Of a stretch of 64,000 nt of DNA, positions 6,520 through 61,422 are shown piece after piece. Source of the DNA: Gordonia desulfuricans NBRC 100010 (GTDB lineage Bacteria > Actinomycetota > Actinomycetes > Mycobacteriales > Mycobacteriaceae); NCBI RefSeq assembly GCF_001485495.1, contig NZ_BCNF01000026.1, positions 1 through 64,000 on the forward strand. Direction: 5' to 3'. Below the pieces are notes generated by a model that ran no database searches, was not told the DNA's origin, and worked only from the letters and a program-made list of their open reading frames with translations. The translations under genes were made by a program, and so were the position numbers. The first letter of the stretch is position 1; each line of letters opens with the position of its first letter.

Positions 6520-7053
6520 GTGTCCACCACCTTCACCGCGACCGAACTCCACGACGCCTTCGCCGACTTCCAGGAGACGGTCGCCGAGATCGGCGACACC
6601 CGCGACTGGGATCGTTTCGCCGAGTTGTTCACCCCGGATGCGGAGTACATCGAGCACGCCCTGGGCACCATGCACGGCCGCGAGGAGATCCGGGAGTGGA
6701 TCTGGCGCACCATGACCGCCTTCCCCGGCAGCCACATGACCGGGTTCCCGGCGCTGTGGCACGTCGTCGACGCCCCGACCGGCCGGGTGATCTGCGAGGT
6801 GGACAACCCGATGCGTGACCCCGGGGACGGCACCCACATCACTGCGACCAACATCACCATCCTCACCTACGCCGGTGACGGTCTCTGGTCCTGCGAAGAA
6901 GACGTCTACAACCCGATGGAGTTCGGGCACGCCGCGATGCGGTGGTGCGAAAAGGCCGCCGACCTCGGTACCCTCGACGACAGCGCAGCTCGATGGATGC
7001 GCCGGATCGGCCCGGCTTTCGCCTCTGGCCGGCCGGCTGCGGATCGGCTGTGA
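6520..7053 (+). CDS. NTF2-like/SnoaL-fold protein
   Basis: A 177-residue protein of the nuclear-transport-factor-2-like superfamily. It shows the cone-fold pattern DWDRFAELFTPDAEYIEHALGTMHGREEIREW near the N-terminus, followed by the beta-sheet half. Such domains act as small isomerases, hydratases or binding proteins, and nothing here fixes a substrate. The start is GTG at 6520. The gene stands alone between the divergent WS/DGAT gene and the desaturase. Confidence 0.75.
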   Translation: MSTTFTATELHDAFADFQETVAEIGDTRDWDRFAELFTPDAEYIEHALGTMHGREEIREWIWRTMTAFPGSHMTGFPALWHVVDAPTGRVICEVDNPMRDPGDGTHITATNITILTYAGDGLWSCEEDVYNPMEFGHAAMRWCEKAADLGTLDDSAARWMRRIGPAFASGRPAADRL

Positions 7054-7260
7054 GTAGTCCGACGGATGTGGACGGGGCCCCATCCGCCGGAGCACGATGG
7101 TGGCCGGCCCGGCCGACGTAACGCCGGCGGGCCAGGTTACGACTGCGTAGGTACGGGCTTGGGTTGATCTCCGAAGTGCCGTAACCTTGACCACTGATCA
7201 TTTGACGTGCGGCCTGCCGAAGACCGGCTTTCACGCACGAACACCGTTCGGAGGAAATCA

Positions 7261-42336: not shown

Positions 42337-42519
42337 ATGGGCCGCGGCCGGGCTAAAGCAAAGCAGACGAAGGTTGCTCGTCAGCTCAAGTACTCCACTC
42401 CCCACACCGACTTCGAGAGCTTGCAGCGCGAGCTGTCGGGGTCGGGGGATTCGGTTGATCATCACCCGGATCCTGTGGTGGAGGAGTGGGCCGAAGAGGA
42501 CGAGTGGCGCCACGCTTGA
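42337..42519 (+). CDS. DUF3073 small conserved protein
   Basis: A 60-residue protein, basic at the N-terminus (MGRGRAKAKQTKVARQLKYS) and acidic at the C-terminus (VVEEWAEEDEW). It matches the DUF3073 family, which sits next to purM in many actinobacteria (Rv0810c). No function is established. The charge polarity suggests a nucleic-acid or ribosome-associated protein, but that is speculation. Confidence 0.88.
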   Translation: MGRGRAKAKQTKVARQLKYSTPHTDFESLQRELSGSGDSVDHHPDPVVEEWAEEDEWRHA

Positions 42520-42781
42520 CGGCGTGGAGTCGAGTGCCTCTTGACCTGGACCTGACGTCGACCACCCCGACGCAGGCACGGTAGCTTCCGAATCGCAAGC
42601 GACGACGCCGGTCACCGGTTGTGAGCCCCTGCCCGGGCCACGCCGGTGGCCGGTGCCGTCGCTTGTGGTCGTTGCCCGGCGGCTGTTGCCGCTCCCCTGT
42701 CAGTCGCGCTCCCGCTGCGTCTGCTCCCGCTGCTCCTGCCGCGCGTCTGTTCCTGAAACTAGGGGAAAGTGACTTTCCCCT

Positions 42782-43067
42782 ACTTTCGTCACCTTCCCCG
42801 TGTTGTAACCAGGGGAAAGCCACGAATCTAGGGGAAGGACACCTTCCCCGGGTTTCGGGACACCGGGAAGTGCGATCCCGGACGACCCGTCGTCGACGAC
42901 GAGCTCCCACTCGATCCTCACCCACCCCGTCCCCGACCGCCCGAAACCCGACTGCCCGAAACCCACCGACAGAAACCAGGGGAAAGCGGACCTTCCCCCA
43001 CTTTCGTCACCTTCCCCGTGTTGCAACCAGGGGAAAGCCACGAATCTAGGGGAAGGACACCTTCCCC
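42782..43067. repeat. 68-bp direct repeat pair with GGGGAAAG/CTTTCCCC hairpins
   Basis: Copy 1 at 42782-42849 and copy 2 at 43000-43067 differ at one base. Each contains inverted AGGGGAAGG and CCTTCCCC arms and ACCAGGGGAAAG blocks that can pair with flanking CTTTCCCC stretches. The 218-bp offset holds more partial copies (GGGAAG, CCCGAAACCC). This is most of a 720-bp gap (42520-43240) between convergent genes, in which I see no coding potential. Confidence 0.8.
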
Positions 43068-43070
43068 TGG

Positions 43071-43142
43071 TTTCGGGCCGTCCCCGAGTTTCGGGCCGTC
43101 CCCGGGTTTCGGGCCGTCCCCGGGTTTCGGGGCGTCCCCGGG
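43071..43142. repeat. Four tandem 18-bp repeats
   Basis: Four contiguous units of TTTCGGGCCGTCCCCGGG with one- to two-base variants, followed by a truncated TTTCCCC. The array directly abuts the second 68-bp copy and stops 17 bp before the purM terminator. Confidence 0.85.
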
Positions 43143-43158
43143 TTTCCCCACAGACATA

Positions 43159-43206
43159 CGACAGAGCCCGTCGACACCGATCTCTCGGCGTCGACGGGCT
43201 CTGTCG
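43159..43206 (-). terminator. purM terminator
   Basis: CGACAGAGCCCGTCGAC (43159-43175) pairs perfectly with GTCGACGGGCTCTGTCG (43190-43206), with a further ACAGACA/TGTCTGT outer stem. It starts 35 bp past the purM stop. Confidence 0.9.
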
Positions 43207-43240
43207 TTATCGTGTCTGTGTTGCCGTGTCCGGCAGGCAC

Positions 43241-44338
43241 TCAGAAGCGCGGGTGCTCGCCGACCAGTGTCGCGCGCGGGGCGGCGTCGGAGGACCGCTT
43301 GATGGTGCCCAGCACCCAGTTGTCGACGTGGCGTGCGGTCAGGACCGCCTGTGCCCGGTCGGTGTCCTCGGGAGCGACGACGGCGACCATGCCCACACCC
43401 ATGTTGAAGGTGCGCTCCATCTCGGCCTGCGCCACGCGACCGCGCTGCGCGATCATCGCGAAGATCGGTGCGGGGGTCCAGGTGTTGCGTTCCAGTTCGG
43501 CGACGAGTCCTTCCGGGATCACCCGGGCCAGATTCTCGGCCAGTCCGCCACCGGTGACGTGGGCAAAGGTGCGCACATCGGTCTCGGCGGCCAGGGCCAG
43601 GCAGTCGCGGGCGTAGATACGGGTCGGCTCGAGCAGCTCCTCACCGAGGGTGCGGCCGAACTCCTCCACGTGCCCACCGAGATCCATGTGACCCCAGTCC
43701 AGCAGGACCTTGCGGGCCAGCGAGTAACCGTTGGAGTGCAGTCCCGACGCACCCATCGCGATCACCGTGTCGCCGGCCCGGACCTTCTCCGGCGACAGCA
43801 CCTGATCGGCCTCGACGACGCCGATCGCGGTCGCCGACAGATCGTAGTGGTCGTCACGCATCAGACCCGGGTGCTCGGCGGTCTCACCGCCGAGCAGGGC
43901 ACAGCCGGCGATGACACAGCCGTCGGCGATACCGGCGACGATCTCGGCGACCGTCTCGGGCACCACCTTGCCGATGGCGATGTAGTCCTGCAGGAACAGC
44001 GGCTCCGCACCGCAGACGACGAGGTCGTCGACGCACATGGCGACGAGGTCCTGGCCGACGGTGTCGTGCTTGCCGACCGCCTGGGCGACGGCGAGCTTGG
44101 TGCCGACGCCGTCGCTCGCCGCGGCGAGCACCGGCTCACGGTAGTTGCCCTTCAGGGCGAACAGACCGGAGAAGCCGCCGAGTCCGCCGAGTACCTCCGG
44201 GCGCGTGGCCCGCTTGGCGTGACTCGAGATCAGCTCGACAGCGCGCTCACCGGCGTCGATGTCCACACCTGCGGCCGCATACGACAGGCCCTCGGGCGTG
44301 GTGTTCGTGTTCTCGGTGGCCGAATCCTGTTCGCTCAT
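43241..44338 (-). CDS. purM: Phosphoribosylformylglycinamidine cyclo-ligase
   Basis: A 365-residue AIR synthetase for step five of purine synthesis, ATP-dependent ring closure of FGAM. Family motifs are GLSYAAAGVDIDAGE at the N-terminus, ASDGVGTKLAVA and GASGLHSNGYSL. It lies 108 bp after purF on the same strand, as in Rv0808-Rv0809. Confidence 0.96.
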   Translation of the reverse strand: MSEQDSATENTNTTPEGLSYAAAGVDIDAGERAVELISSHAKRATRPEVLGGLGGFSGLFALKGNYREPVLAAASDGVGTKLAVAQAVGKHDTVGQDLVAMCVDDLVVCGAEPLFLQDYIAIGKVVPETVAEIVAGIADGCVIAGCALLGGETAEHPGLMRDDHYDLSATAIGVVEADQVLSPEKVRAGDTVIAMGASGLHSNGYSLARKVLLDWGHMDLGGHVEEFGRTLGEELLEPTRIYARDCLALAAETDVRTFAHVTGGGLAENLARVIPEGLVAELERNTWTPAPIFAMIAQRGRVAQAEMERTFNMGVGMVAVVAPEDTDRAQAVLTARHVDNWVLGTIKRSSDAAPRATLVGEHPRF

Positions 44339-60252: not shown

Positions 60253-61175
60253 CAGAAGTACCCCTCCCGTTTGCGGTCTTCCATCCCGGCCTCGGAGATG
60301 CGGTCGTCGGCGCGGGTGGCGCCACGCTCGGTGAGGCGGGTGACCGAGATCTCCTCGATCACCTCGGCGACGGTGACGGCGTCGCTGCGCACACAGCCGG
60401 TGCAGGTGGCGTCGCCGACGGTACGGAACCGGACCCGCTCGACATGCGACTCCTCCCCCGGTTTGCGTTCCAGGAATCGGGTGTCGGCCAACAACATCCC
60501 GTCGCGCGGTACCACCGCCCGCTCGTGTGCGTAGTAGATCGGCGGCAACTCGATCTGTTGTGCGGCGATGTATCCCCAGATGTCGAGTTCGGTCCAGTTG
60601 CTCAGCGGGAAGACCCGGATGTGCTCACCGGCGTGGTGGCGGCCGTTGTAGAGGTGCCACAGTTCCGGGCGCTGCGCCCGCGGATCCCAGGTGCCGAACT
60701 CGTCGCGGAAGCTGAACACACGCTCCTTGGCGCGAGCCTTCTCCTCGTCGCGGCGGGCACCACCGAACACCGCGTCGAAGCGGTTCTCGGTGATCCCGCG
60801 GAGCAGCGCCGTGGTCTGCAGCCGGTTGCGGCTGGTGCCGGGACCGGTCTGCTCCACGACGCGCCCGGCGTCGATGTCGTCCTGCACCGAACTGACGATC
60901 AACCGCACCCCGGTCTCGGCGACGACGCGGTCACGGTAGGTGATCACCTCGTCGAAGTTGTGGCCGGTGTCGACGTGCATGAGCGGAAACGGGATCGGTG
61001 CGGGCCAGAACGCGCGGCGGGCGATGTGGAACATCACCACCGAGTCCTTGCCGCCGGAGAACAGCAGCACCGGTCGCTCGAAGGTGGCCGCCACCTCCCG
61101 GAAGATGTGGACCGACTCGGCCTCGAGCGCGTCGAGATGGCTCAGCTCGTAGTGCGCCCTGCCCGGTGCGGTCAT
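60252..61175 (-). CDS. cysD: Sulfate adenylyltransferase subunit 2
   Basis: A 307-residue PP-loop ATPase (FSGGKDSVVMFHIA) that adenylates sulfate, partner of CysN. Conserved REGYF C-terminus and VFPLSNWTELDIW. The ATG at 61175 overlaps the stop of an upstream mini-ORF. First gene of cysD-cysNC-cysQ. Confidence 0.96.
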   Translation of the reverse strand: MTAPGRAHYELSHLDALEAESVHIFREVAATFERPVLLFSGGKDSVVMFHIARRAFWPAPIPFPLMHVDTGHNFDEVITYRDRVVAETGVRLIVSSVQDDIDAGRVVEQTGPGTSRNRLQTTALLRGITENRFDAVFGGARRDEEKARAKERVFSFRDEFGTWDPRAQRPELWHLYNGRHHAGEHIRVFPLSNWTELDIWGYIAAQQIELPPIYYAHERAVVPRDGMLLADTRFLERKPGEESHVERVRFRTVGDATCTGCVRSDAVTVAEVIEEISVTRLTERGATRADDRISEAGMEDRKREGYF

Positions 61176-61209
61176 GCCGTCTCCCTGCTCATGCCGTCCC
61201 CCTGCTCAT
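61172..61209 (-). CDS. Two tandem coupled mini-ORFs in the cysD leader
   Basis: A 17-bp unit, ATGAGCAGGGGGACGGC and its copy with one change, is repeated just before cysD. Each copy starts an ORF of six codons (MSRGTA and MSRETA) whose TGA overlaps the next ATG; the second stops on the cysD ATG. A duplicated ATCAGGAGGCG with two AGGAGG sites lies upstream. The layout suggests ribosomes could pass from one to the next by reinitiation. Confidence 0.45.
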
Positions 61210-61422
61210 GTCGCCTCCTGATGATGACGCCTCCTGATGCTGCTGTCTCGTGATGATGCCGCGTGTCGATGATGCCGCCGCGCCGGCCGCACCCATCCGA
61301 TTGTCCCCCGGCGCGCCGGTGGTCCGTTCGACAGACAGCCTTGCTAACGATCTCATCGCCCCGACCGGTATTCCCTGTGAACCCGCTGGAAACCAGCTGC
61401 ACCCGCACACAGGAGGATCGAC

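Follow-up and report, generated by a model that had tools for sequence, protein, structure and literature searches.

The repeat-rich region between the convergent DUF3073 and purM genes of the window, the 64,000-nucleotide stretch of Gordonia desulfuricans DNA analyzed here, is best read as two copies of a dispersed palindromic element that probably belongs with a single-gene partner, an AbiEi-like and nuclease-like protein that would recognize the palindrome and likely cut and spread it. The association of gene and element is apparent in the dispersal of the element, the co-occurrence of the two, the bracketing of all ten partner genes, the resemblance of gene-flanking copies to others in their own genome, and the presence or absence of the whole unit at one site; we infer that the protein binds, cuts, and moves the palindromes.

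The first-pass annotation of this region had described a 68-bp block present twice, and the two occurrences (42782–42849 and 43000–43067) do differ by one mismatch at a spacing of 218 bp; a repeat-family search covers the pair with a 98-nt family of the same spacing. The tandem 18-bp units said to follow are likewise present (4.7 copies with 93% matches), and the ORF positions agree with the placement between DUF3073 (a family name taken from that annotation) and purM (Table 1). The 68-bp block belongs to a larger element of about 103 bp, composed of six 15–16-nt half-sites in the orientation + − − + + − that form three hairpins; the second hairpin has its half-sites reversed relative to the first, with a TTGCAA-like center, and is followed by the third. 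The whole element is nearly palindromic and therefore matches itself on both strands: W2 scores 81.4 bits on the minus strand and 80.8 on the plus strand with covariance model R1, W1 and W2 both being among the 19 copies used to build it. Tandem half-hairpin arrays also adjoin other copies of the element, and the 15- and 18-bp arrays are probably later, secondary slippage products of its ends.

Table 1. Features of the DUF3073–purM region, in window coordinates
Feature	Position	Strand	Basis or remarks
DUF3073 gene (60 aa), left neighbor	42337..42519	+	ORF; MGRGRAK start at same position in relatives
Inverted repeat, probable terminator of DUF3073 gene, outside element	42596..42665	.	Repeat search
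Element copy W1	42755..42856	.	Hairpins 42755-42787, ~42789-42822, 42824-42856; model R1 88.1 bits
Spacer W1/W2, outside element core	42857..42931	.	
15-bp tandem array left of W2, sense opposite to right array	42932..42977	.	Tandem-repeat search and inverted pairs
Element copy W2	42972..43074	.	Hairpins 42972-43005, ~43007-43040, 43042-43074
18-bp tandem array, repeats of W2 terminal half-hairpin	43063..43146	.	Begins inside W2
Near-perfect inverted repeat, probable purM terminator, outside element	43158..43207	.	23-nt arms, 96%
purM, right neighbor	43241..44338	-	ORF; homologue in 59/59 genus genomes

Model R1 drew its 19 copies from five genomes. For the three-hairpin structure across these copies, 79.6% of cells are paired (a level reached in 0/500 shuffles), 55 cells are changed on both sides (1/500), and the covariation score is 0.177 (0/500). 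The numbers of pairs in which both sides changed (19 vs. 17.4; 139/500 shuffles) and of pair types (44 vs. 45.6; 395/500) are ordinary, and these two counts are the measures rated least prone to false signal by the covariation tool. A single long hairpin gave a covariation score of 0.157 (75/500) with 76.9% of cells paired (107/500), and one long concentric hairpin was rejected as the conserved structure on these weaker shuffle statistics. The shuffle comparisons thus indicate that three local hairpins fit better than a single long one, and leave selection for pairing incompletely proven. Copies in one relative (G006) show, by eye, an additional stem outside the three hairpins, which would make a cloverleaf. 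By eye, GTAG was not found as a terminal tag common to all copies; it lies inside the stems of many.

The first-pass annotation had proposed comparing the 68-bp unit by BLAST with its own genome and relatives. In its own genome, the segment gave at least 26 matches at E ≤ 0.001 with 40 of 108 candidates scored, more than chance would produce; they lie in the window and eight other stretches. Copies in relatives of the genus are built alike, with a sequence particular to each species. Contig ends of the window genome fall within the element at the end of G000:C36 (L014), the start of C115 (L012), and the end of C47 (L016), so that its copy number there may be underestimated. At E ≤ 0.01, R1 matched 12 of the 59 genus genomes and none of the other 47. 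Ten genomes have 15–68 matches each (the counts for G006 and G016 being lower bounds), G001 has 2, and G078 has 1; the scan used strict filters, scored at most 68 candidates per genome, and counted both strands, so element copies number about half of these matches. Five of the ten element-rich genomes (G010, G069, G035, G029, and G079) contributed no sequence to R1.

The hairpin pattern was also found in 69 stretches of named records (52 from Gordonia sp. ABSL49_1, 5 from other Gordonia, namely G. otitidis, G. sputi, G. polyisoprenivorans, and G. oryzae, and 12 from other organisms) and in four viral contigs. On re-scoring with R1 at E ≤ 1e-4, none of the four viral contigs passed, the two G. 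oryzae stretches failed, and L087 alone remained of the 12 from other organisms. This weak match (6989–7067; E 9.5e-6; GC 0.41), in Lachnospiraceae bacterium IMSAGC_011 of an unrelated phylum, is perhaps merely a similar hairpin. In the own genome, the strict hairpin pattern gave one match, as it did in the control. A phage or plasmid origin was considered and rejected: blastn of the segment against phage and plasmid collections returned no match, tblastn with the partner protein found none in phages and five weak records in plasmids, and two scans of viral contigs found no partner protein. One of the five plasmid homologues is labeled AbiEi antitoxin, three are hypothetical, and one has no label. 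Gordonia sp. ABSL49_1 carries a composite repeat of about 355 bp, with the hairpin core of the element within longer conserved flanks (L045, L082, L108, and 23 other loci). Its 26 copies, some truncated, are mostly 87%–98% identical to L108 over the aligned part, look like a recent amplification, and show no target-site duplication apparent by eye.

The DUF3073–purM intergenic region, inspected by eye in 27 of the 59 genus genomes, is without the element in 25, the exceptions being the window genome (727 bp) and G006 (465 bp, with its own copy inside); among genomes where the element is absent by eye, it measures 264 bp in G016, 187 bp in G035, 185 bp in G001, and 218 bp in G029.

The partner gene was first met between elements in contig C37 of the window genome (frameshifted) and in G010 (intact, 329 aa); in both, the stop codon touches the element, and the surroundings differ. 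The element–gene–element unit measures about 1.3 kb. Between two genes that we take, from their sequences, to encode a thiolase and CMD, the intergenic distance is 1282 bp in G010, 1308 bp in G016, and 1270 bp in G006, where the unit is present, vs. 39 bp in the window genome and 180 bp in G023, where it is absent; the window genome carries the partner gene at another place. The flanks of the partner gene that were viewed hold palindromes and the genes read as thiolase and CMD. In G006, the partner gene is inverted relative to its neighbors, and the gene of another clade is inverted in G066 as compared with G018, G022, and G014.

Ten of the 59 genomes, the element-rich ones, have a partner homologue of at least 56% identity (in the window genome, the gene is in two pieces of 58% and 50% identity). 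The next-best homologues stand at 52% (partial, G003) and lower, and some relative at E ≤ 1e-20 is present in 58 of the 59. Every one of the ten genes in the ≥56% group has an R1 match next to it, and eight have one on each side; in L184 and L185, the remaining side carries what is, judged by eye, a degenerate copy, and with these all ten genes are bordered by the cognate element, 2 of 20 sides being degenerate. The flank scan covered 30 loci (L191 and L206 are one gene), and beside the other 19 it gave no R1 match at E < 0.01, the nearest being L190 at 0.018. Two of the ten genes (G000 and G029) look frameshifted. In the loci viewed, the downstream copy lies past the stop codon, and in some touches it. 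The partner protein of G069 is identical to a G. otitidis protein, and G. otitidis has a partner gene of 56% identity with the element (L046); in G. polyisoprenivorans, the element adjoins the start of a 51% gene that is cut by the locus end (L070).

In G001, a sister of G035 and G029, the partner gene is truncated and the unit rearranged, with 2 R1 matches vs. 16 and 15 in the sisters, although BLAST detects short stretches resembling the element at five places. The 5′ part of the gene lies inverted beside the presumed thiolase gene on one contig, and on another a half element is joined to unrelated DNA (L304/L305), the breakpoint falling inside the element. An exact insertion junction was sought in G001 by way of two G035 loci; in G001, the solitary one of these also carries the element, and the unit with the gene is disrupted and rearranged. 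Neither a target-site duplication nor an exact insertion junction came to light.

In a phylogeny built from purM and its flanking DNA (30 of 59 genomes), gene and element presence requires only three changes; the match of the two therefore does not represent ten independent events and rests on few. In a comparison of 20 gene-flanking with 64 dispersed copies, similarity of the flanking copies is 0.45 within the own genome vs. 0.29 with other genomes (1/2000 label permutations); the own genome is best in six of ten cases, and G079 or G035 is best in the other four.

The partner protein, of about 330 aa, has an N-terminal part like AbiEi, a winged-helix antitoxin family, and an invariant C-terminal pattern E..D..ExDxxxK. 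The PADLOC AbiEi model matched all 36 aligned proteins (best 4.3e-19), and Pfam AbiEi_4 was found in 8 of the 36 at E ≤ 0.1. When 24 of 27 outside-genus loci were aligned with the 36 family proteins, E212, D244, E259, and K265 were kept in 59 of the 60 sequences. We take this conserved acidic/lysine pattern to be that of PD-(D/E)XK-like nucleases. Searches for a nuclease domain in the partner family found none in Pfam, Pfam and NCBIfam searches with the close group gave nothing, and PDB profile searches with the family returned no match; an AF2 model from one sequence reached a pLDDT of 35 and was useless. The nuclease reading thus rests on the motif.

Paralogue clades have their own, different repeats on both sides of the gene, mostly hairpin-forming. 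A repeat common to the two flanks, at a score above 45, was found at 37 of 42 family loci (9/10 partner genes and 28/32 paralogues), vs. 0/30 purM loci and 0/47 window ORFs; the five loci that missed this score are L189, L199, L215, L219, and L220. The test took 25 of 30 loci (without L190, L205 [contig edge], and L204 [partial], and with L191 and L206, the G000 gene, replaced by a reading from L009) and 16 of 19 paralogue-search loci (without L222, which is the L190 gene, and the duplicates L228 and L229). A 14-mer of the palindrome of a second clade is matched 52 times, across 11 of the 59 genomes (14 in G028, 12 in G080, 7 each in G026 and G003, 5 in G075, 2 in G032, and 1 in each of five others), where both arms of one palindrome may count; its reversed control has none. 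Gene and 14-mer occur together in seven of the eight genomes inspected (G028, G080, G074, G075, G026, G003, and G078); G077 has the gene and no 14-mer. The 14-mer occurs once or twice in G032, G073, G035, and G029, genomes without a listed gene of this clade. Across the order, 95 of 121 genomes have a member of the family. Beyond the genus, the flank score is passed at 17 of 27 loci and missed at 10, some of the bracketing repeats are not palindromic, and cross-locus maxima reach 78–293 in five rows; this test took 28 of 30 loci (without L242 and L243, whose genomes were already counted), one of the 28 lying within the genus.

Among known systems, the closest likeness is to REPtrons, REP/BIME elements with RAYT (TnpA-REP) genes (PMC3733652, PMC8266576). 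Short palindromes, high-copy intergenic dispersal, a single partner gene bordered by cognate copies, and a repeat particular to each system are common to both. However, the Gordonia partner is no HUH tyrosine (Y1) transposase, the element is about 103 bp with three hairpins rather than the 20–40 bp of REPs, and its copies, by eye, have no universal terminal GTAG tag. Identity with REP/RAYT was rejected: none of the 59 genus genomes had a match to PF01797 (IS200/RAYT transposases) at E ≤ 0.001, in a search whose control matched 5 of 14 known genomes. The system is thus REPtron-like, but its non-HUH partner means that it is not a REPtron. The partner pattern D..ExDG..K, followed by EKxRE and RWxW, presumably resembles that of Vsr/DUF559-type endonucleases, but the family has no Pfam nuclease match and no profile similarity to one E. 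coli Vsr sequence (hhalign probability 0.1, in a weak test). With AbiE systems, it has in common the N-terminal similarity to AbiEi, a protein that in Streptococcus agalactiae binds to long inverted repeats (PMC3985639); it differs in its nuclease-like C-terminal motif and in the position of the gene between two palindromes in the loci viewed, where no AbiEii-like gene stood out in the flanks.

Sixty-one of 69 listed copies could be placed, at 50 distinct sites, by simple ORF picks with an 80-aa cut: 35 convergent, 13 co-directional (the window site among them, since its 60-aa left gene falls below the cut, though it is truly convergent), and 2 divergent. The list holds one strand each and excludes the duplicates L132 and L129 and one weak L010 match; eight copies at locus edges were dropped, and L118 and L119 are one site in two genomes. 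No site lies inside an ORF, and many copies are 10–60 bp from a gene end. Such positions would suit palindromes acting mainly as bidirectional terminators or insulators, which spread through their usefulness at convergent 3′ ends and bracket the partner gene as they do others. However, two other inverted repeats already stand at terminator positions in the window, control genes are without matching bracketing repeats (0/30 and 0/47), and the convergent site of the window is itself without the element in 25 of 27 genomes, all of which make this account distinctly unlikely. The palindromes might alternatively be operators of the AbiEi-like part, the bracketing pair being autoregulatory, the dispersed copies a regulon or decoys, and the nuclease-like part serving, for example, defense. 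That the PADLOC AbiEi model matched every aligned protein is in keeping with this, as is the reported autoregulation of AbiEi via inverted repeats (PMC3985639), but the downstream copy follows the stop codon at the loci viewed and is not in a promoter position, the majority of classed dispersed sites are convergent 3′ ends, and element number varies widely among relatives; we consider this role unlikely.

MITEs are small, palindromic, non-coding, and multi-copy, and the Gordonia element is all of these. An unrelated transposase, of the DDE or another type, could have mobilized it in trans, with the gene captured once between two copies and then inherited; the ABSL49_1 composite family looks MITE-like, and the differing gene positions suit mobilization of any segment between two copies. 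However, the cognate gene has entire solo copies on either side instead of only terminal repeats in common with them, and the paralogues (30%–52% identity) are bracketed by unrelated repeats, for which a single capture cannot account; we judge this origin very unlikely. Growth of the region in place by slippage, one of the routes named in the first-pass annotation, fits the flanking 15- and 18-bp arrays of terminal half-hairpin repeats, but is refuted for the 103-bp copies, which are dispersed and common to several species, and as the sole process it has next to no chance of being correct. The other route, insertion of a repetitive palindromic element, holds for the 103-bp copies, given their dispersal in the genome and their absence at this locus in nearly all genomes inspected. 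A structured RNA found no backing, as none of 26 Rfam matches up to E 5 reached the gathering score, and the idea of a mini-transposon relic came near in spirit, the partner gene having lain outside the earlier reader's view. The interpretation first offered is thus partly supported.

If the palindromes do belong with a protein that recognizes and spreads them, its AbiEi-like N-terminal part would bind the inverted half-sites, and its nuclease-like C-terminal part would nick or cut the palindrome, as duplex or extruded hairpin. Repair or replication would copy the palindrome to new intergenic places, the whole element–gene–element unit would occasionally be copied too, and the 15- and 18-bp arrays of the window would be later tandem duplications of element ends. 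Together, the palindrome and the nuclease-like gene that it brackets appear to form a selfish or mobile repeat system of a kind not described before; literature searches on palindromic repeats, AbiEi, REP/RAYT, MITE, and Gordonia, with subscription papers mostly outside their scope, returned no report of it. More tentatively, and with slightly more doubt than belief, the reading may extend to an order-wide selfish class, an HUH-independent counterpart of REP/RAYT in which each AbiEi/PD-(D/E)XK-like protein would recognize and cleave its own bracketing multi-hairpin palindromes and seed them across the genome by repair-coupled copying, many unrelated palindrome sequences each having evolved with their own protein. 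The two REP papers describe an HUH transposase as the dedicated partner of dispersed bacterial palindromes and report that CGTC REPs have none (PMC3733652, PMC8266576). A second, unrelated partner family with cognate palindromes of its own would, if true, show that repeats of this kind evolve again and again through coupling to other enzymes, and would suggest a function for a large, little-annotated protein family; palindrome spread would become testable with one protein and one DNA.

Elsewhere in the window, a 16–17-bp tandem array of about 6.5 copies lies at 61172–61279, with a consensus that differs from the 103-bp element. DnaA-box-like motifs (TTATCCACA-like) lie upstream of family genes, in the interval from the 5′ palindrome to the start codon (e.g., L009 5580–5714), as an inverted pair in some loci; the DnaA-box-like 8-mer is present upstream in 21 of 42 loci, vs. 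0 of 42 downstream and 0 of 30 before purM.
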